A stretch of DNA of 64,000 bases from Siphonodentalium dalli. Taxonomy: Eukaryota > Mollusca > Scaphopoda > Gadilida > Siphonodentaliidae. Of the stretch, positions 9,311-64,000 are shown one piece after another; positions within the stretch are counted from its first letter, which is position 1, and each line of letters starts with the position of its first letter. The stretch spans positions 204,250,978-204,314,977 of the forward strand of contig CP136066.1 of assembly GCA_032622095.1 (NCBI GenBank), written 5' to 3'. Position numbers and translations under genes: made by a program. The notes below the pieces were generated by a model. The model had not been told where the DNA came from. It saw only the letters and a list, made by a program, of their open reading frames with translations, and did not search any database.

Positions 9311-9510
9311 TTAACCGTGTTTTATAAAGAGCGCCCACATGCTCCCGCCACTTAAAAGCGGGACAAATGTGTTATGAATAATGATATTTCGAATTCGTTT
9401 TCAACGTTAAATGGTGATTCTTGCGTGTATTTTCTCGATGTTTGCGTCACGCGAATAGTGAATGCAAGTGGTTTTCGTTTTTATTTTGTCTGGTAAGCTG
9501 AACACATTAA

Positions 9511-9982
9511 CCCTTTACCCAACAGAACGGCCCTGTGCCAATGCATTCTCTTATATATGCGAGTCTACCATAGGTCGCCTCGCATATATAAGAGAATGCA
9601 TTGGCTTAACATATTAAAAATGATAAAATTGTCAAAGAATGTAGAAAAATATTATAAAAGTTGTTAAAAAATGTAAGAAAAAATTATAAAATTGTTAAAG
9701 AATGTAAGAAAAAATGGTAAAAAGTGTTAAAAAAAGAATTTTTAGGCCAATGCATTCTCATGCGAGGCGACCTATGGTCGACTATGCGAGGCGACCTATG
9801 GTCGACTCGCATATATAAGAGAATGCATTGGCACAGGGCATAACTGTAACCATCACAATGTGGTCAATGAACCGGTTCCAATTATATCCTATTTGTATGG
9901 TGTTATTGAGACAGGCCGAAGATATTTTAGGCTGTTGAAGCTTTATTTGGGCGTTTTTGGCCGGTTTTTATTGGGTAAAGGG
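9511..9982 (+). mobile_element. M4 piggyBac-like MITE, copy 1
   Basis: TTAA at 9507-9510 and 9983-9986. The left TIR is CCCTTTACCCAACA and the right end is GGGTAAAGGG, with a decayed TIR interior. A CCC-starting TIR with a TTAA duplication is the piggyBac hallmark; there is no transposase gene, so it is non-autonomous. The right subterminal part holds a GGCTGTTGAAGCTTTATTTG block shared by all four M4 copies. Confidence 0.8.
9531..9838. repeat. HP double-hairpin module in M4 copy 1
   Basis: Begins CCCTGTGCCAATG and ends with its reverse complement. The first hairpin is at about 9539-9604. The second, at about 9748-9831, is rearranged: the upper arm is shortened and the centre GCGAGGCGACCTATGGTCGA is present twice, a local duplication at the hairpin tip. 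Confidence 0.8.
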
Positions 9983-10045
9983 TTAACACAGAAACTTTAG
10001 ACTTATTTAGAGCCAAATCGGACAGGGCATCTTCAAAGATTTCAC

Positions 10046-13323: not shown

Positions 13324-13743
13324 GTGACCCGCCATATCAAATCCAGTCGTAAGTCGGGATTTTTTTTACCCTGTGCCAATGCATTCTCTTATATCTATAG
13401 GTCGCCTCGCATATATAAGAGAATGCATTGGCCTTACAATTTTTTATCAAATTTTTAGGACATAAAATAAAAAAAACATCCATTACCCTGCAGGGAGCCC
13501 TACACATATATAGAAGCATATAGAAGAGTGTCTGCTCATGTTTGTCTGGGGCTCTGTATGGGTGAAATTATAAAATTGTTAAAAAATACAAAAACAAATT
13601 ATTAAAATTGTAAAAAATTGTTAGGCCAATGCATTCTCTTATATATGCGAGGCGACCTATGGTCGACTCGCATATATAAGAGAATGCATTGGCACAGGGT
13701 AAAATAAAACCCGACTTACGACTGGATTTTATATGGCGGGTAC
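13324..13743. mobile_element. M5 element, copy 1, inside M1
   Basis: TIRs GTGACCCGCCATATC and its complement (right end slightly diverged, GGGTAC). The flanking 4-bp repeat is ATTT at 13320-13323 and 13744-13747. The empty site reconstructs intact M1 sequence. Non-coding; it carries an HP module. Confidence 0.75.
13369..13699. repeat. HP module in M5 copy 1
   Basis: Flanked by TA on both sides (13367-13368 and 13700-13701). The first hairpin, about 13376-13431, is partly collapsed: the upper left arm after TTATAT is missing. The second hairpin, about 13625-13691, is full length. Confidence 0.8.
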
Positions 13744-22102: not shown

Positions 22103-22560
22103 GTCACCCGCCATATCAAATCCAGTCGTAAGTCGGGATTTTTTTTACCCTGTGCCAATGCATTCTCTTATATATGCAAGTCGACCATATGCCGCCTCGC
22201 ATATATAAGAGAACGCAATGGCCTAACATTTTTTTTATCATTTTTTAAAAATAAATGTTTCTTACAATTTTTAGGACATAAAATAAAAAACATCCATTAC
22301 CCCGAAGGGAGCCCCACACATATATAGAAGCATATAGAAGAGTGTCGTCTGCTCAATTTTGTCTGGGGCTCTGTATGGGTGAAAATATAAAATTGTTAAA
22401 GAATACAAGGAAATATTATTAAAATTGTAAAAAATTGTTAGGCCAATGCATTCTCTTATATATGCGAGGCGACCTATGGTCGACTCGCATATATAAGAGA
22501 ATGCATTGGCACAGGGTAAAAAAATCCCGACTTACGACTGGATTTGATTTGGCGGGTCAC
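22103..22560. mobile_element. M5 element, copy 2, inside ORF1
   Basis: TIRs GTCACCCGCCATATC and its complement GTGACCCGCC at the right. Target duplication ATAT at 22099-22102 and 22561-22564. The spacer between the HP hairpins holds a GGGAGCCCCACACATATATA block near 22309 and its partial complement TGTCTGGGGCTC near 22361, a second internal inverted pair. Confidence 0.8.
22148..22516. repeat. HP module in M5 copy 2
   Basis: Flanked by TA dinucleotides. Both hairpins are complete, about 22155-22221 and 22442-22509, with a few substitutions in the first (for example GAACGCAATGG for GAATGCATTGG). Confidence 0.8.
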
Positions 22561-23870: not shown

Positions 23871-23877
23871 TCATTAA

Positions 23878-24338
23878 CCCTTTACCCAACAGAACAGAAC
23901 GGCCCTGTGCCAATGCATTCTCTTATATATGCGAGTCGACCATAGGTCGCCTCGCATATATAAGAGAATGCATTGGCTTAACACATATTAAAAATGATAA
24001 AATTGTCAAAGAATGTAGAAAAATATTATACAAATTGTTAAAAAATGTAAGAAAAAATTATAAACTTGTTAAAAAATGTAAGAAAAAAATGGTAAAAAGT
24101 GTTAAAAAAGATCTTTTTAGGCCAATGCATTCTCTTATATATGCGAGGCGACCTATGGTCGACTCGCATATATGAGAGAATGCATTGGCACAGGGCATAA
24201 CTGTAACCATCACAATGTGGTCAATGAACCTGTTCCAATGATATCCATATTTGTATGGTTCTATTGAGACAGACCGAAGATATTTTAGGCTGTTGAAGCT
24301 TTATTTGGGCGTTTTTGGCCGTTTTGTTGGGTAAAGGG
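23878..24338 (+). mobile_element. M4 piggyBac-like MITE, copy 2
   Basis: TTAA at 23874-23877 and 24339-24342; TIRs CCCTTTACCCAACA and TGTTGGGTAAAGGG, apart from small indels. GAACA is duplicated just inside the left TIR. Confidence 0.85.
23903..24195. repeat. HP module in M4 copy 2
   Basis: Both hairpins are complete, about 23910-23976 and 24122-24188, with a single G for A change (TATGAGAG) in the second. The spacer is A/T-rich with repeated GTTAAAnAATGTAAGAAAAAA units. Confidence 0.85.
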
Positions 24339-24342
24339 TTAA

Positions 24343-28290: not shown

Positions 28291-29017
28291 ATGTAATAAT
28301 AGGACATATTTTTGGCATCAAAAGTTGTTTATTCGATAAACAATAACCAACTAGTTAAATACATACATTAATGAAACAACTTTCACACATCTTTCTCACA
28401 TCCACTCAACCTACCAATTATACACAGGAAATGATGTTTTTCTGTCAATAAGCCGCAGGCCACCATAAATTAATACTGATGTCGTCCGGGGGAGCCAAAG
28501 GCTGGTAGATTCATCTGGACTATCAAGTCAGTGGCGTGAAGATGCTGTTCAAGCTATCTCCTGAAAGGGAAGTAAGGGAGAAGACATCAGTATAAAGTTT
28601 ATTTAAATACAAAGAAAGAAACTAAGTTGATGATCAATATCAATATAATACACATACAGGGTAGTCATAGCTACTCTAATATCCCTCGTTACATAATAAT
28701 TCAAATTATCATTATTATAATTAATGGCAATTGTGTTAACTGCTTAATCAATGTAATACTCATGAATATTAGCACTCATTACAATAACCCGGTGTTCACT
28801 ATAATTCATAGCAAATGTGTTAACATTATAATCGCGCACATGGATATTATCATTAATGATCAATATGTTAACTAAATAATCAATGTAATACTCTGACATG
28901 AATAGTATAACTAATTACACAGTGTCCAATTATGACTATAATTCATGATAATTTTGGCAAAAATTTCACAACTTGAATGAAAATATTTCTCAACACCCTG
29001 GTGCCTTCATAGTTTAA

Positions 29018-29409
29018 CCCTTTACCCAACAGAAGGGCCATGTGCCAATGCATTCTCTTATATATGCGAGTCGACCATAGGTCGCCTCGCATATATAAGA
29101 GAATGCATTGGCTTAACACATTAAAAATTATAAAATTGTTAAAGAATGTAAGAAAAAATGGTAAAAAGTATTAAAAAAAGATTTTGTTTAGGCCAATGCA
29201 TTCTCTTATATATGCGAGGCGACCTATGGTCGACTCGCATATATAAGAGAATGCATTGGCACAGGGAATAACTGTAACTATCACAATGTGGTCAAAGAGC
29301 CGGTTCCAATGATATCCATATTTGTATGGTTCTATTGAGACAGACAGAAGATATTTTAGGCTGTTGAAGCTTTATTTGGCCGGTTTTGGCCGGTTTGTTG
29401 GGTAAAGGG
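29018..29409 (+). mobile_element. M4 piggyBac-like MITE, copy 3
   Basis: TTAA at 29014-29017 and 29410-29413; TIRs intact. It lies in the non-coding 3' part of the DIRS-like element. Confidence 0.85.
29038..29266. repeat. HP module in M4 copy 3
   Basis: Two full hairpins, about 29045-29111 and 29193-29259, with a short spacer. The outer edge is mutated on the left (CCATGTGCC for CCCTGTGCC). Confidence 0.85.
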
Positions 29410-29894
29410 TTAAATGGAGGACTTCATCATTGGCAGCAAAAAGTCGCCTCAGAGGAATATGTGTAACTTTTTAAACAAAAGATTTGGATGTTCTGACAAT
29501 TTTAACATGCCTATCGGAACAACGTGGATAATTGCTTGTTTACATCAATGATTTTTTCTTCAGTATATTTAAATATTTTGGCCTTGGCAATAAGGATGAA
29601 ATGACCAATCTACATGAGGTATTAGTTAAAACCACTGTTATCAAATCGTTAAACAATGCAATTATATGTTCTACTGAATGACTGTATAGTATTTGTTCCA
29701 ACATGAATTATTATATAATTATTTGGAACTGATACTCTCCTTATTTGAGAGAACGAATCTTGTCAATATCTGAATTTTGGCTCCAGAATGCGGATCGACT
29801 TCAGTGTTGTTCACGCCTGTGACGTATTTGCAAATAATGTCTGACATGAGTAGAACTGAATTGGAACCTACAATTTTATATTAATTCTAACATT

Positions 29895-30783
29895 CTACAT
29901 GTTTCTGATATATGTACTTAAGGCTTGAGACATTTTCATCTTATCTTCCAAATCAATTTCCAAATAAACTTTGTATGCATCGGTTCTCCAATCTCCGTGC
30001 AACTGTATCAAATCGTAAGGAACACCACACATAAAGGCTGTTGTAGCTCCACCTCTTCTAAAACTGTGGGAAGAGTAATTATGTGGATCACGATTAGTTT
30101 TCTCAATCAACAATTTCAATTTTCTTTGGAGTTGTGGATATGTAACTACAACAGAGCTTTTTGATTTCTTAATCATAAAGGCTGGTTCTTCGTTAACTCC
30201 TGGTACTAATCTACACATGTTAATGTAGGCTTCCACGGGACACAAAGGTGAATTTTCAATTGGAATCAATGGTAATTGTAGTTGTCTCTCTCCAAACTGA
30301 TTTGACTTTGACCGTTTTAATGTCACAACCAAGATATTACCCTTTATTGAAATATCACCCCTGATTGTTCTGATCGAATTCTCTAAATGAATTAGGCACT
30401 AAATTAGATTTGCGTGAAAAAGTGAAAAAGGCGAGAAGAAACAAACACCAAAAGGTTGCATCATGGGGATCTTCACAATTTAAAAATGCATACAATTCCA
30501 GTAATAGTTCTGGTATGATTGGAGAAGCTCGATTAACTGCATGTGGATTCAATATGACAATGCATTGGAACATTAATTTATTATGATATGAATCAGTTGG
30601 AAATTGAATATCCAATAAATGTAAGGTTTTCACCCCTGCGACATAGTTTTTAATTGATTGTACTGAAACAAATGACCTACTTAAACTGCACAAATATAAT
30701 TGTATAAGCTTACTGTTAGCAGGCAATGGATTGAAAATGAACAATTCACAAAATAATGAATATGCCTCAAATTGAATTTTCAA
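29895..30783 (-). pseudogene. DIRS-type tyrosine recombinase
   Basis: The enzyme would insert the circular DNA intermediate of the element by site-specific recombination. About 296 codons. The N-terminal SAM-like part is 30783 to about 30450. The catalytic Arg lies in FFTFSRKSNLVP near 30385-30420, the His-x-x-Arg box in SSHSFRRGGATTA near 30040-30070, HGDW follows, and the nucleophile region is DAYKVYLEI near 29955-29980. All four catalytic positions remain recognisable. One frameshift near 30357 separates box I from the rest. The stop at 29895 follows a short C-terminal tail, as in relatives. This is the best kept gene of the element. Confidence 0.85.
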
Positions 30784-30974: not shown

Positions 30975-31627
30975 TCATGAATATTCTAGCGTTAGTCTTT
31001 GACCATCTAGATAATAAATCTGGGATCCGGTTGCTAGAACCGCTTTTGTGGATAGCCTTAATGTCAAACTAATGCCTAGCTGCAATGAACTGAATCTCTC
31101 TAAGATATGACTGCATGAACATATTATGTGTAGCCCCAGAATTGAGAACTGACACAGACACAAAATTATCACACAAAACATGGAAATTTTGCGTCCTGTA
31201 TATATCTGACCCCAAATTTTAAAGCTAATCAAAACAGTTAATAATTCTAAACAATTAATTTGCAAACATTCTGTACGAATATATTCCAGAAACTCTCTAT
31301 GAAAATAATCATCTCCACTCCACAGGATGAAAGTGTAGCATCACATGCTAACTGTACATCCGATTCAGACCAATCTTCTAACATCATCATGTAAATACCA
31401 TTATAATCTTCGAGAAACTCTGACCACAAGGCCAGGTCTTTTCTCGCGAATCTAGGAATCGGAGTCTTGTGCTGTTCTAATTCAAAGTTACGCAACCATG
31501 TTAATAAGCGTGAGACAAAAAGTCTCCCCGGTCGAACACATGATGAAATAAAGTTAAGTTTTCCCAGCAAAGACTCCAATTCCTCCGATGCCATTTTCTT
31601 CCTTTTCCATGATTTTACTAGATTCAA
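30975..31627 (-). pseudogene. DIRS-type RNase H domain
   Basis: Degrades the RNA strand during element reverse transcription. Minus strand: the connection LALWSEFLEDYNGI, then SDVQLACDATLSSCGVEM with the first catalytic Asp, INCLELLTVLISFKIWGQ with the Glu, and, after a frameshift, HVLCDNFVSVSVLNSGATHN with the next Asp, then REIQFIAARH. DLLSRW-like remnants lie at about 31005. At least two frameshifts. Confidence 0.75.
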
Positions 31628-31817
31628 TTCTTAATTCAAGTTTGTTTAGATCAAATTGGATTCCAAAAAAATTTCGTATTATTTTTGAAGGTGCACTAAT
31701 ATTTTCTACCGATTCCTCTCAGCAGCAGTTGTCCAAAATTGTCTTTAAAAAATTAAAAGACGCTTCAACCTTTTCTTCAAGTTCACAACCTGCAGGATCA
31801 TCCATGTACTTGATTAA

Positions 31818-32199
31818 CCCTTTACCCAACAGAAGGGCCCTGTGCCAATGCATTCTCTTATATATGCGAGTCGACCATAGGTCGCCTCGCATATATAAGA
31901 GAATGCATTGGCTTAACACATTAAAAATTATAAAATTGTTAAAGAATGTAAGAAAAAATGGTAAAAAAAGATTTTTTTTAGGCCAATGCATTCTCTTATA
32001 TATGCGAGGCGACCTATGGTCGACTCGCATATATAAGAGAATGCATTGGCACAGGGCATAACTGTAACTATCACAATGTGGTCAAGGAGCCGGTTCCAAT
32101 GATATCCATAGTTGTATGGTGTTAGTGAGACAGACCGAAGTTATTTTAGGCTGTTGAAGCTTTATTTGGCCGGTTTTGGCCGGTTTGTTGGGTAAAGGG
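31818..32199 (+). mobile_element. M4 piggyBac-like MITE, copy 4, in RT
   Basis: TTAA at 31814-31817 and 32200-32203, with intact CCCTTTACCCAACA TIRs. The empty site, CACTTAATCAAG on the minus strand, restores the RT reading frame two codons before YMDD. This is direct evidence for a TTAA target duplication. Confidence 0.9.
31838..32056. repeat. HP module in M4 copy 4
   Basis: The cleanest example. Hairpin 1 at 31845-31911 and hairpin 2 at 31983-32049, each 67 nt: a 26-bp perfect outer stem, one T/C mismatch, a 5-bp CGACC/GGTCG inner stem and an ATA loop. Hairpin 2 is the reverse complement of hairpin 1. Open frames on both strands run through the module and give QCILLYMR and YKRMHW peptides, which are artefacts of the palindrome. 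Confidence 0.9.
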
Positions 32200-32388
32200 T
32201 TAAGTGGAATCCTGCTGTATTCATCATGTAACAAATCCAATCAGTCATTGATTGCCATTTAAATGCACTACTTCTCAAACCCATAGGTAACACCCTGTCA
32301 TAATAAATTTGACCTTGCCAGTTGCCACTGATACCCTAATAAATGTACATCACATACGTCTACTGGTATCTGTCTGTAACAGCGCCTC

Positions 32389-34575: not shown

Positions 34576-35046
34576 TATCTATGTGAATAAACGGGATAAT
34601 TGTATATTCATAAACAAGCTTGAGGTATAACGGCAGCCATGCGTGTAGACAATAGTATATACTTTGATTTTATTTATTTCGTCAGGGGTGTGGGTAACAC
34701 ATTGTTAAGCCTCAGGGGTTGTTTATGGTTTTCACATGGTTTTCTGAAATGTGCTGAAGGGTACACATGGTTTTCTGAACTGTGTGGAAGGATACACATG
34801 GTTTTCTGAAATGTACTGAAGGGTACACAGGGTGTTCTTGAATGTACTTAGCGTAAACAATATGTATGTACCCAAGATATACAATCTCGCATACATAAAT
34901 AATTATCAAGATACTAAATATATTTGATCGAGGATATAGGGAATCTGATATAAAGCATTATATAAATGCGTATTCTATGGGTTATCTCCCGATGTATTAA
35001 AGTGACCATTTCATAGGAGTATAAATTGTTGTATTTGTATACTTAA

Positions 35047-35467
35047 AGGTTCTCAATCCGAATTAACGCTCGCAAATTACTATTTCCTTGGCTTCGGGGT
35101 TAAAAAATATTTGAACCCACCCATCAAATCTCAAGGTGATCAGATATCGATGTTTGAAACTATTATTTTAATTTTAGGTGGCCCAGTTAACAGTCGACGA
35201 GAAGAACTTCTCTGACCAAATTGCGGATGAAGATCGATAACTCTAAAATCTAGTGGCTTTTACGTGTCAGATATTTGACAAACCGGCAAAATATCGTGGA
35301 ACAAAACGTTGATAAATAACAGGTTTTTGGCAATTTTATACTATAGTTGACTGTGGTTAGCATTATTTTTGGGTAATTAATCGATTCTGATATCTGAAGC
35401 GGCATTTAAAAAAAAATTGTTGTTGGAATCTGATGATATGGGGACCGTCGAATCGGATTGAGCACCT
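35047..35467. mobile_element. M1 MITE, copy 3
   Basis: TTAA at 35043-35046 and 35468-35471; ends AGGTTCTCAATCCG and CGGATTGAGCACCT. Full-length. Confidence 0.8.
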
Positions 35468-38265: not shown

Positions 38266-39172
38266 CATACATGTTGTTATTTTGGTGTTCGAGCACTTGA
38301 ATATAGCGCTTTTGTGCATAGGTGTTAGACCTTGTAACGTGGTTTTAACAATCTGGGTTTTATAAAGCCATGGTCTAGAATTTTGATATGATGGCATGTG
38401 GTCCATGATAACTTAACCAAATGTTAAACATCGAATATTTTGTTTGGCATGTTTAATGGCGCTTTTATGTGCGTTTTAGAGGCCCATGTGGAATTTCCAA
38501 GATGATCGGCATTTGGAAGCGCGTCGGTGCGAGGGTTTGAGGCCCATGATGATAATCAAGATATACTAGTGCTCGGCATTTAGAACTGGCATCGAGTTTT
38601 GGTACGCGAGTGATATGCTTTAGTAGTAATGTAATGCTTTAGTGCGAAGGCGTCATGCCATTATTATAGCATGTTGTTATTTTGGTGCGCGTCGGTGCGA
38701 GGGTCTGAGGCCCATGATAATAATCAGGATACTATGCATTTGGAAGCATGTCGATGAGAGGGCGTGAGGCCCATAATAATTCTTAAAATGCTCGGTATTT
38801 TGAAGCACGTCTGTGTGAGGGTTTGAGGCTCATGATAATACTCAAGAAGCTCGGCATTTGGAAGCATGCCGGTGCGAGGGCGTGAGGCCCATGATAATTT
38901 TCAAAATGTTCGGCATTTTGAAGCACGTTTATGTGAGGGTTTGAGGCCCATGATAATACTCAAGAAGCTCGGCATTTGGAAGCATGCCGATGCGAGGGCG
39001 TGAGGCCCATGATAATTTCCAAGATGCTCGGCATTTGGAAGCACGTATGTGCGAGGGTTTTGAGGCCCATGATAATACTCAAGATGCTCGGCATTTGGAA
39101 GCATGCCGGAGCAAGGGCGTGAGGCCCATGATAATACTCAAGATGCTAGGCATCAGTGATTATGTATGTATA
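38266..39172 (+). repeat. Minisatellite element, copy 1
   Basis: A unique head of about 210 bp (38266-38475) precedes an array of about 59-bp units of the type GAGGCCCATGATAATACTCA ... CTCGGCATTTGGAAGCATGCC, with older degenerate units first. The same head and array recur at 58738-59650. Open frames through the units (EAHDNTQDARHLEA) are by-products. Confidence 0.85.
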
Positions 39173-39236: not shown

Positions 39237-39683
39237 TTGTATATTCATAAACAAGCTTGAGGTATAACGGCAGCCATGCGTGTAGACAATAGTATATACT
39301 ATGATTTTATTTATTTCGTCAGGGGTGGGGGTAACACATTGTTAAGCCTCAGGGGTTGTTTATGGTTTTCACATGGTTTTCTGCAATGTGCTGAAGGGTA
39401 CACATGGTTTTCTGAACTGTGCGGAAGGATACACATGGTTTTCTGAAATGTACTGAAGGGTACACAGGGTGTTCTTGAATGTACTTAGCGTAAACAATAT
39501 GTATGTACCCAAGATATACAATCTCGCATACATAAATAATTATCAAGATACTAAATATATTTGATCGAGGATATAGGGAATCTGATATAAAGCATTATAT
39601 AAATGCGTATTCTACGGGTTATCTCCCGATGTATTAAAGTGACCATTTCATAGGAGTATAAATTGTTGTATTTGTATACTTAA

Positions 39684-40104
39684 AGGTTCTCAATCCGAAT
39701 TAACGCTCGCAAATTACTATTTCCTTGGCTTCGGGGTTAAAAAATATTTGAACCCACCCATCAAATCTCAAGGTGATCAGATATCGATGTTTGAAACTAT
39801 TATTTTAATTTTAAATGGCCCAGTTAACAGTCGACGAGAAGAACTTCTCTGACCAAATTGCGGATGAAGATCGATAACTCTAAAATCTAGTGGCTTTTAC
39901 GTGTCAGATATTTGACAAACCGGCAAAATTTCGTGGAACAAAACGTTGATAAATAACAGGTTTTTGGCAATTTTATACTATAGTTGACTGTGGTTAGCAT
40001 TATTTTTGGGTAATTAATCGATTCTGATATCTGAAGCGGCATTTAAAAAAAAATTGTTGTTGGAATCTGATGATATGGGGACCGTCGAATCGGATTGAGC
40101 ACCT
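39684..40104. mobile_element. M1 MITE, copy 4
   Basis: Paralogue of 35047-35467; TTAA at 39680-39683 and 40105-40108. Confidence 0.8.
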
Positions 40105-45644: not shown

Positions 45645-45789
45645 ATCTACAACTCGTCCCCAGTTTATAGCGGAAATTACAAAACTCGTCCAGTAAATTA
45701 GGTCTGGACCTCGCCAAAGGCTCGGTCCAGACCTAATTTACTGGACTCGTTTTGTAAATTCCGCTATAAACTGGGGACTCGTTGTAGAT
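45645..45789. repeat. Long palindrome, about 70-bp arms
   Basis: Arms start ATCTACAACTCGTCCCCAGT and GGTCTGGACC closes the stem near the centre (CTCGCCAAAGGCTCG loop). Nearly perfect. No other copy in the window. Confidence 0.8.
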
Positions 45790-46437: not shown

Positions 46438-46855
46438 GTGACCCGCCATATCAAATCCAGTCGTAAAGTCGGGATTTTTTGTACCCTGTGCCAATGCATT
46501 CTCTTATATATGCGAGTCGACCCTATGTCGCCTCGCATATATAAGAGAATGCATTGGCCTAACAATTCTTTATCATTTATTTTAAATAAATGTTTCTTAC
46601 AATTTTTTGGAAATAAAATAAAAAACATCCATTACCCTGCAGGGAGCCCCACACATATATAGAAGCATATAGAAGAGTGTCGTCTGCTCATGTTTGTCTG
46701 GGGCTCTGTATGGGTGAAATTATAAAATTGTTAAAGAATACAAGAACAAATTATTAAAATTGTAAAAAATTGTTAGGCCAATGCATTCTCTTATATATGC
46801 ATTGGCACAGGGTAAAAAATCCCGACTTACGACTGGATTTGATGTGGCGGGTCAC
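46438..46855. mobile_element. M5 element, copy 3, inside LINE RT
   Basis: TIRs GTGACCCGCCATATC and its complement, intact at both ends. ATAT at 46434-46437 and 46856-46859. Confidence 0.85.
46484..46812. repeat. HP module in M5 copy 3, hairpin collapsed
   Basis: Flanked by TA on both sides. Hairpin 1 at about 46491-46557 is complete. Hairpin 2 (46778-46805) is only 28 nt: the left arm to TTATATATGCATTGG, with the centre and most of the right arm deleted. Confidence 0.85.
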
Positions 46856-48287: not shown

Positions 48288-50008
48288 TAGGATAGGATAG
48301 GATAATTTTATTTACAATATACACACATGGAAAGTACAATTACAAATAAATATAATATTGATAGACTATACATGTATATTGCTAGGGGTGATATAGTCAT
48401 GACTGACTGTCTTCCTATCACCCCTGGGTGTGGTGACAGATTATATGATGAAGATGGCCGAATTAATTTGTTAGGGCGATGGTACGAAAAGTGGTTCATA
48501 TGTATGGGCACCTACTTGGTCGATATACTGAATGAATACTATGAATATTCATGTGTGAGTGGAACCGAGTAGGAATAATGTCAGTGAGGTTTTGGGAATG
48601 TTTTTTTGTTATCAGAAAATTATGTATCGTTTGTGCAATCAGGGCATCTTCGGTTTTTGCATCGCACGCTAGCTGGATAGGTATTAATGATATCCGTTTT
48701 CAAACGTTTTCGGAACGCATGTCTTGATTGTTTAGAGGTATATTTACTTTCAAGGGAATTCCACATAAATGGGAATGAATGGTATGGGAGAACTTTAGAA
48801 AAAGAGATGGTCCTGAATTTGTTTTGTACTATAGGATTAGGTTGTCGTCTATTTGGTTCTGCTCTCTTGTCATACATACCAGAAAAAGACACTGGTAAGC
48901 GATCGTAGTACCAATCATGCATGAAAATGGATGCATGTAATTTATGTAAATCATTTATTTTTAAAATGTTTTCTTGTTTGAAAAGAGGATCGGTGTGACT
49001 TCTATATTTTTTGTTACATATAATTCTCATGGCTCGTTTTTGTAATAAATATAGTTTCTTCACTGCTGGCACATGTCCCCATATTTGGATGCCATAAACT
49101 AAGTGGCTTTGAATTAGGGCGAAGTATAATGTTTTGAGAGCCTTGCTCGGGAGAAAATGTTTAACTTTATTAATGCAATAAATTGCATGTGCCATTTTTG
49201 AGCATACAATAGAAATGTGTTTATTAAAGGTCAGGTTTTCATCTATATGGATACCTAAAAATTTGGCAGACGATTCGCTCCGCATGTTCCCTATCCGTAG
49301 AAGTTCGGCTCCATTGAGATATATTTTAATTGTATTCCATTTTTTGTCATTGTTTTGTGGATGCAAGAGCATATAATTGCTTTTGTTAGCATTGATGGCT
49401 AGTTTGTTGCAGCAACACCAGTCAGATAGATTTCTTAATTCGTTATTGACATAACTTTGGATTAACGCTTCATTTTGTCCACTGGCCATAAGGGTTGTAT
49501 CGTCGGCATATGATAAGAGATCCATAGTAGTTGCATTTGACATATCGTTCACGTAGAGGAGAAAAATTATGGGCCCGAGTAAGGAGCCCTGAGGAACACC
49601 ACATGATGTTTTTAGGAGATTTGACTTGCTTCCATTGAATTCTACGTATTGTCGTCTCTCATTGAGATAGCTTCGAAACCAGTTGTTTGCCATGCCTCTA
49701 ATTCCATAATGTTCAAGTTTTGTAAGTAAGATTTCGTGGTTTATTGTGTCAAAAGCTTTGGACAGATCAAGAAAAAGGGCTACGGTGGAATCTTTCGTGG
49801 GCTTGTCGTTATTTTTTACAACATGATCCAGTAGATGAATGATGGGATGAAAAGTTGAATGGTTTGGGCGAAATCCGTACTGATGTTTAAATAAGATGTC
49901 CGATTCATTAAGAAAATCAACTAAACGTTTTTGCATGAGTTTTTGGATCGAATCATACGATTTGCATGGAATGAATCGGAATAAGATGAGTATAGTAGTT
50001 GCTTGCAT
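48288..50008 (-). CDS. LINE reverse transcriptase, 462 codons open
   Basis: The longest open frame of the window: coding part 50008-48620, 3' UTR to 48288. RT copies LINE RNA into DNA at the nicked target. Motifs in order: [20 protein letters not shown] (fingers), [20 protein letters not shown] (motif A Asp), [21 protein letters not shown] (motif B; PQGS), [13 protein letters not shown] with YADD at 49499-49510, [28 protein letters not shown], then LVYGIQIWG and the C-terminal [19 protein letters not shown] and [10 protein letters not shown]. The N-terminus is odd ([20 protein letters not shown]) where relatives have a PIS-L-P motif, so the 5' end is truncated or rearranged; no endonuclease. 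The tail has AATAAA and TATCC repeats, as in CR1/L2/Jockey-type LINEs. A recent but defective copy. Confidence 0.88.
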
Positions 50009-58737: not shown

Positions 58738-59650
58738 TATACATGTTGTTATTTTGGTGTTCGAGCACTTGAATATAGCGCTTTTGTGCATAGGTGTTAG
58801 ACCTTGTTAACGTGGTTTTAACAATCTGGGTTTTATAAAGCCATGGTCTAGAATTTTGATATGATGGCATGTGGTCCATGATAACTTAACCAAATGTTAA
58901 ACATCGAATATTTTGTTTGGCATGTTTAATGGCGCTTTTGTGTGCGTTTTAGAGGCCCATGTGGAATTTCCAAGATGATCGGCATTTGGAAGCGCGTCGG
59001 TGCGAGGGTTTGAGGCCCATGATGATAATCAAGATATACTAGTGCTCGGCATTTAGAACTGGCATCGAGTTTTGGTACGCGAGTGATATGCTTTAGTAGT
59101 AATGTAATGCTTTAGTGCGAAGGCGTCATGCCATTATTATAGCATGTTGTTATTTTGGTGCGCGTCGGTGCGAGGGTCTGAGGCCCATGATAATAATCAG
59201 GATACTATGCATTTGGAAGCATGTCGATGAGAGGGCGTGAGGCCCATAATAATTCTCAAAATGCTCGGTATTTTGAAGCACGTCTGTGTGAGGGTTTGAG
59301 GCTCATAATAATACTCAAGAAGCTCGCCATTTGGAAGCATGCCGGTGCGAGGGCGTGAGGCCCATGATAATTTTCAAAATGTTCGGCATTTTGAAGCACG
59401 TTTATGTTAGGGTTTGAGGCCCATGATAATACTCAAGAAGCTCGGCATTTGGAAGCATGCCGATGCGAGGGCGTGAGGCCCATGATAATTCACAAGATGC
59501 TCGGCATTTGGAAGCACGTATGTGCGAGGGTTTTGAGGCCCATGATAATACTCAAGATGCTCGGCATTTGGAAGCATGCCGGAGCAAGGGCGTGAGGCCC
59601 ATCATCGCCGCCCATGATAATACTCAAGATGCTAGGCATCAGTGATTATG
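58738..59650 (+). repeat. Minisatellite element, copy 2
   Basis: Head and array near-identical to 38266-39172, same orientation, about 20.5 kb away. One extra CATCATCGCCGC insertion near 59602. Confidence 0.9.
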
Positions 59651-63365: not shown

Positions 63366-64000
63366 TCATAAAAATTCTACTAGGAGCATACGAGATTGTT
63401 ATGACCTTGTAAAATCTGTCTTCTCTATATAGCGACGACAGTTTTTGCCGGGTAATATCAGTTTTACACGGGTCATACGAGATTGTTATGTCCTTGTAAA
63501 ATATGTCTTCTCTATATAGCGACGACAATTTTTGCGGGGTAATATCACTTTTACACGGGGCATACGAGATTGTTATGACCCGTGTAAAATCTGTCTTCTC
63601 TATATAGCGACGACAATTTTTGAGGGGTAATATAATTTTTACACAGGGCATACGAGATTGTTATGACCCGTGTAAAATCTGTCTTCTCTATATAGCGACG
63701 ACAATTTTTGCGGGGTAATATCACTTTTACACGGGGCATACGAGATTGTTATGACCCGTGTAAAATCGGTCTTTTCTATATAGCGACGACAATTTTTGCG
63801 GGGTAATATCAGTTTTACACGGGGCATACGAGATTGTTATGACCCGTGTAAAATCTGTCTTCTCTATATAGCGACGACAATTTTTGCGGGGTAATATCAG
63901 TTTTACACGGGGCATACGAGATTGTTATGACCCGTGTAAAATCTGTCTTCTCTATATAGCGACGACAATTTTTGCGGGGTAATATAAGTTTTACACGGGG
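63366..64000. repeat. 88-bp satellite array, runs off window
   Basis: Units of 88 bp (87 in the first two) start near CATACGAGAT at 63387, 63474, 63561, 63649, 63737, 63825 and 63913. Each unit has TTTTACACGGG and CCCGTGTAAAA, an 11-bp perfect inverted repeat with a 19-base loop. The minus strand stays open through the array (repeating SLYREDRFY), a by-product. The first units are the most diverged, so this is the array edge. Confidence 0.92.

Follow-up and report, generated by a model that had tools for sequence, protein, structure and literature searches.

A hairpin module carried by several MITE families in the genome of Siphonodentalium dalli

Conserved domains are shared among SINE families. 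Three of them, V, CORE and Deu, are presented as highly conserved in the accessible text of PMC6887750. These domains resemble the hairpin module described here, which is carried by MITE families designated M4, M5, M7 and M8, in that one conserved unit occurs in elements with different ends; they differ from it in belonging to retroposons of many species and in having no perfect hairpins, whereas the module resides in DNA transposons of one genome. MER6/MER6A, as far as the same text describes it, is a Tc1/mariner MITE carrying a V-SINE domain (PMC6887750). As in the hosts of the module, a foreign unit joined a MITE and was amplified with it as a composite. However, MER6/MER6A represents one host lineage with hundreds of copies per genome and a SINE cargo, whereas the cargo here is palindromic, is found in four families at the least, whose target duplications are of two kinds, and exceeds 10^5 arm copies. 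AgaP2-P12MITE of Anopheles gambiae is a composite MITE with ends from two P subfamilies, and the accessible part of its report describes no shared internal hairpin unit (PMC1562414). Its likeness to the module hosts is that of a MITE with parts of different origin.

The termini of piggyBac-type elements read CCYT. According to the accessible portion of PMC5199201, piggyBac-type MITEs use a TTAA target and Tc1/mariner-type MITEs a TA target. M4, M7 and M8 resemble the former by their TTAA targets and CCCTT ends, with membership judged by the termini only; piggyBac-type MITEs are not defined by a hairpin module. The module itself resembles Tc1/mariner-type MITEs in being palindromic and, in M5 and at a further locus named L004, bordered by TA, and differs from them in the absence of TA in M4 and M8. 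Nested and chimeric MITEs are already known; what marks the present case is a single cassette, its ends fixed, shared by four or more families with two kinds of target duplication. The accessible text of the literature searched, including PMC5199201, PMC4455052, PMC10294476 and PMC12368964, describes no hairpin unit common to several MITE families.

For the 64-kb stretch of DNA analysed (the window), a sequence-only reading had listed seven double-hairpin modules, four within M4 (TTAA, CCCTTT) and three within M5 (GTGACCC, 4-bp duplications), and all were found at their predicted starts and in their predicted hosts (Table 1). TTAA is present at both ends of 4/4 M4 copies, while the M5 copies possess GTGACCC-type ends and the 4-bp duplications listed. 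Both families have the features of MITEs: (i) a length of about 390-480 bp; (ii) TIRs; (iii) TSDs; (iv) many copies; and (v) a non-coding character, judged by size. The window also retains the pre-insertion sequence of M5a, at 35077..35074 and 39714..39711 in the two copies of a local duplication, which confirms the 4-bp duplication and indicates that the M5a composite moved as one unit. Repeats at 34733-34845 and 39370-39482 and in their surroundings recur 4637 bases apart throughout, a pattern resembling a local duplication.

Table 1. Module copies and their host elements in the 64-kb window
Feature	Position	Strand	Description
M4d host	31814..32203	+	TTAA at both ends, CCCTTTACCC termini
M4d module	31838..32056		CCCTGTG and 69-nt hairpin, AT-rich spacer, inverted hairpin and CACAGGG
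M4d left hairpin	31844..31912		27-bp stem, then a T/C mismatch, 5 bp and an ATA loop
M4d right hairpin	31982..32050		Reverse complement of the left hairpin, mismatch included
M4a host	9507..9986	+	Module 9531-9838; 31-bp repeats between hairpins; right hairpin partly duplicated
M4b host	23874..24342	+	Module 23903-24195
M4c host	29014..29413	+	Module 29038-29266
M5a host	13324..13743	+	TSD ATTT; module 13369-13699; left hairpin minus 11 nt
M5b host	22103..22560	+	TSD ATAT; module 22148-22516; TA both sides; ~100-bp core between hairpins
M5c host	46438..46855	+	TSD ATAT; module 46484-46812; right hairpin minus 39 nt

The intact hairpin measures 69 nt and consists of a 27-bp outer stem, a single mismatch, a further 5 bp and a 3-nt loop, which corrects the 67 nt and 26-bp stem given earlier; the second hairpin of the module is the reverse complement of the first, including the mismatch. 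The outer stem, previously called always perfect, keeps all 27 bp in 9/14 window hairpins. Damage takes the form of internal deletions (11 nt in M5a left, 13375-13432; 39 nt in M5c right, 46777-46806), a partial duplication within 9746-9832 (M4a right), several substitutions at 22154-22222 and one substitution at 24121-24189. Among the window copies compared by eye, the hairpin consensus is identical in M4 and M5 across 75 nt. Folding energies of the two intact M4d hairpins are -36.1 and -38.9 kcal/mol, whereas shuffled sequences average -6.9 and -7.4 (z of -14.3 and -14.5), and the double-hairpin structure is far above chance level. Scanning the window for perfect stems of at least 14 bp with loops of 0-20 returned 12 rows: 10 of the module class, one unrelated hairpin and one (TA)21 run. 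The unrelated one, at 45688-45746, is a separate long hairpin with a 23-bp perfect stem and a sequence unlike that of the module. An exact search of viral contigs with the module 27-mer gave 0 matches, and an Rfam search at gathering scores also gave 0. A DNA search of the genome itself likewise returned 0, with the commonest words left out of that search.

The AT-rich spacer between the hairpins matches between M4 and M5 over 43 aligned bases (81-86%, BLAST) and is therefore part of the module. A wider common ancestry of M4 and M5, with the module as a shared interior, would agree with the common spacer. However, the outer parts of the two families gave no BLAST match at E≤1, their target duplications differ (TTAA versus ATAT or ATTT), and the termini of M7 and M8 are different again; the lack of outer similarity led to the rejection of this ancestry, which is highly improbable. 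One 11-base T-run match connects an M5 arm with the spacer of M4d (E 0.9).

The genome searched (2,226,750,531 bases in 9 contigs) contains 123,984 exact occurrences of the 33-nt arm start (62,101 + 61,883; reversed control 0) and 163,536 of the 17-nt arm start. Each module contributes one or two arm starts, hence modules are fewer than starts. Twenty 10-kb stretches, taken as an unbiased sample, held 10 exact 33-mers, which is 50 per Mb compared with 55.7 genome-wide; the window holds 9, or 140 per Mb. BLAST (E≤0.01) located 21 hairpin places in this sample, confined to 7/20 stretches. By eye, 19/21 lie within M4, M5, M7 or M8, and the other two form one module (L004:6946-7303) outside the known hosts. 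The 14 sampled elements, also assigned by eye, comprise two M4, three M5, two M7, six M8 and this one, which is possibly a free unit and could also be an M5 with its termini lost. Free units are uncommon in the sample.

Restriction of the module to two host families, as first described, was thus too narrow: M4 and M5 are confirmed as carriers, and the hairpin is also present in M7 (TTAA, CCCTTTGAGTGCCAGG ends, a single hairpin) and M8 (TTAA, CCCTTTCATGACTGGAGC ends and variants). The TTAA of M7 and M8 copies has one base altered in several of them. The hairpin carriers are at least three TTAA-type MITE families (M4, M7, M8) together with M5, which answers the question posed beforehand of whether the module ever lies outside M4 and M5.

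A TTAACCCTT terminus is situated 15-45 bp from an arm start in 64,055 places; the first 100 of these, classified by eye, are 47 M4, 15 M8 and 38 M7, with 10 of the M7 belonging to a single tandem array. Genome-wide, there are 12,511 M5 junctions and 12,141 M7 junctions, the latter expected to fall largely inside the 64,055 places. A host was assigned for only about half of the 163,536 starts, the remainder including M4 right ends and diverged copies. A simple host rule applied to all 135 hairpin places in the loci analysed gave 24 M4, 9 M5, 25 M7, 15 M8 and 62 unclassed; inspection by eye showed a few slips of the rule, among them window 46800 and 23903, and many of the 62 look by eye like damaged hairpins, M8 arrays or units repeated within a single tandem array. 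Loci L021-L050, selected for containing an exact arm, do not form an independent sample, since many of them overlap or are tandem-array copies. One of them, L049, shows a further host context with one hairpin. On contig C1, over C1:735735-920855 (L030-L046), exact arms are regularly spaced by ~14.6 kb and ~11.2 kb, which suggests tandem segmental arrays carrying M4 and M7 copies.

The unit has fixed ends, YCCTGTGCC ... GGCACAGGR, and differing host sequence stops just before YCCTGTGCC on the left and right in M4, M5 and M8, on the left in M7, at both ends of L004 and in L049; the first bases are altered in some copies, e.g. M4c, the right end of L004 and L006:463. TA borders 6/11 observed context ends (two in M5, two in L004, one each in M7 and L049), and its presence on both sides of the module, claimed beforehand for M5, is true of all three window copies. 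The 5/11 ends without TA belong to M4 (GG/CA), M8 (AA/TC) and the left side of L019, a rearranged M5 end; the M4c module has GA on its right side. The TA borders and the start base common to all hosts favour the mobile unit with CCCTGTGCCAATG ends suggested by the sequence-only reading, whereas the lack of TA in M4 and M8 and the low frequency of free units speak against it.

The reading preferred here, for which the chances are about even, regards the module as an old palindromic MITE-like unit that entered the founders of at least four MITE families and is now a passenger amplified by its hosts. Such a unit would at first have moved by a cut-and-paste step of its own, presumably duplicating TA on entry, and would have inserted into founder copies of M4, M7 and M8 (TTAA target, CCCTT-type ends) and of M5 (4-bp AT-rich target, GTGACCC ends), with a separate uptake probable for each host family. 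Each composite would then have been amplified by the transposase of its own host, the module travelling as a passenger. The single hairpin of M7 may be a remnant of two, and M8, judging by its most diverged hairpins and its tandem arrays, may be the oldest carrier. M4, M7 and M8 are probably moved by piggyBac-type transposases, to judge from their termini. Matches to the PF13843 (DDE_Tnp_1_7) transposase number at least 128 in the genome (best E 2.2e-94; control 0/14 genomes), many of them with open frames of 500-670 aa. The module has apparently reached tens of thousands of places, mainly as a passenger.

An insertion into TA at the centre of the M5 palindrome predicts empty palindromes, and the genome contains 0 exact matches to an empty M5 palindrome, against 12,511 filled M5 arms, which counts against TA insertion. 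Clean empty M4 copies also number 0; nine short candidates matched the pattern, and 9/9 have module remnants. The filled M5 arms and these M4 remnants favour amplification of the composites with the module inside. TA-flanked starts preceded by C or G occur 510 times genome-wide, against 163,536 arm starts, a pattern that misses any unit with A or T in that position, L004 among them, and is therefore not a full count. Four of the 510 were opened: three are mutated M5 or M7, and one (L054) presents a new context.

Internal deletion and collapse occur in the hairpins. Single hairpins flanked by CCCTGTG on both sides are found 622 times genome-wide; considered as solo insertions, they were rejected after three had been opened, 3/3 being inside M4 sequence, and they are collapsed hairpin pairs on the evidence of these three. 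In M8 the hairpins are mostly diverged, matching the window hairpin at about 78-95%, with one at 98.7%; at the overlapping loci L028/L029, including L029:509-2731, they are arranged in tandem arrays of 97-bp units. A somewhat unlikely alternative to an independent unit is that the hairpin is native to M8, an old TTAA family, as its internal repeat, and that M4, M7 and M5 acquired it through recombination or template switching, helped by hairpin breakage and without any transposition of the hairpin unit itself. It would account for the greater divergence and the arrays in M8, the proneness of the hairpins to deletion and collapse, and the missing TA border in M4 and M8; exchange of this kind is not expected, however, to break at one identical base in several families, M8 flanks have not been carried along, and TA stands on both sides in M5 and L004.

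Divergence from the family consensus was compared in unselected copies (6 M4, 5 M5). In M4 the hairpin arms are less diverged than the host arms (7/648 versus 41/1097, p=0.0007), as is the whole hairpin (8/828, p=0.0001). The corresponding values in M5 are 3/433 versus 10/500 for the arms (p=0.10) and 12/556 versus 10/500 for the whole hairpin (p=1.0), where the loops are variable (9/123). Variable columns among the window copies number 7/150 versus 19/170 in M4 (p=0.04) and 6/100 versus 5/84 in M5 (p=1.0). The lower hairpin divergence could stem from selection, from recent spread or from arms homogenising one another.

These values bear on the idea, also raised by the sequence-only reading, of a functional cassette, to which M4 lends support and M5 does not significantly. 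It is distinctly unlikely that the hairpins are kept by selection because they help any carrier to transpose or survive, whether as a transposase-binding palindrome, as an escape from silencing or as a source of small RNAs. Apart from the M4 arms, this explanation draws on the position of the left hairpin unit, which begins 15-45 bp inside TTAACCCTT in M4, M7 and M8, and on the exact TTAACCCTT termini in 264 kb, 18/23 of which lie within 520 bp of a hairpin (of the five others, one is an M4 cut by the stretch end). Set against it are the M5 values, the movement of copies with damaged hairpins such as M5a, though the damage may be later, the fact that the same signal would arise if the four arms within an element homogenised one another, and the possibility that carrier success is hitch-hiking. 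A broader version, likewise unlikely though a little less so, would make the hairpin unit a portable core domain for DNA transposons, acquired by different MITEs and raising the success of its carriers. By analogy, such a non-coding cassette might work with at least two kinds of transposase, as a counterpart of the conserved SINE domains, and this too is unlikely. The data agree with a passive passenger as well as with a helpful cassette.

With arm copies exceeding 10^5 in a single genome, the cassette constitutes a natural experiment on MITE success. If it helps its carriers, it would be a domain that DNA transposons share; should it give no help, it shows the reach of a passenger once its own mobility is largely gone. 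Hairpin instability could also be studied on the numerous deletion and collapse products that occur here naturally.

Several other features were recorded in the window. Near M4d, open frames on the minus strand (29895-30783 and 31247-31627) resemble, by eye, a tyrosine-recombinase (DIRS-like) element, and a 462-aa open frame at 48620-50008, also on the minus strand, resembles by eye a non-LTR reverse transcriptase. One 59/118-bp tandem repeat is present both at 38679-39153 and at 59152-59602, and an 88-bp tandem repeat at 63386-64000 reaches the window end.
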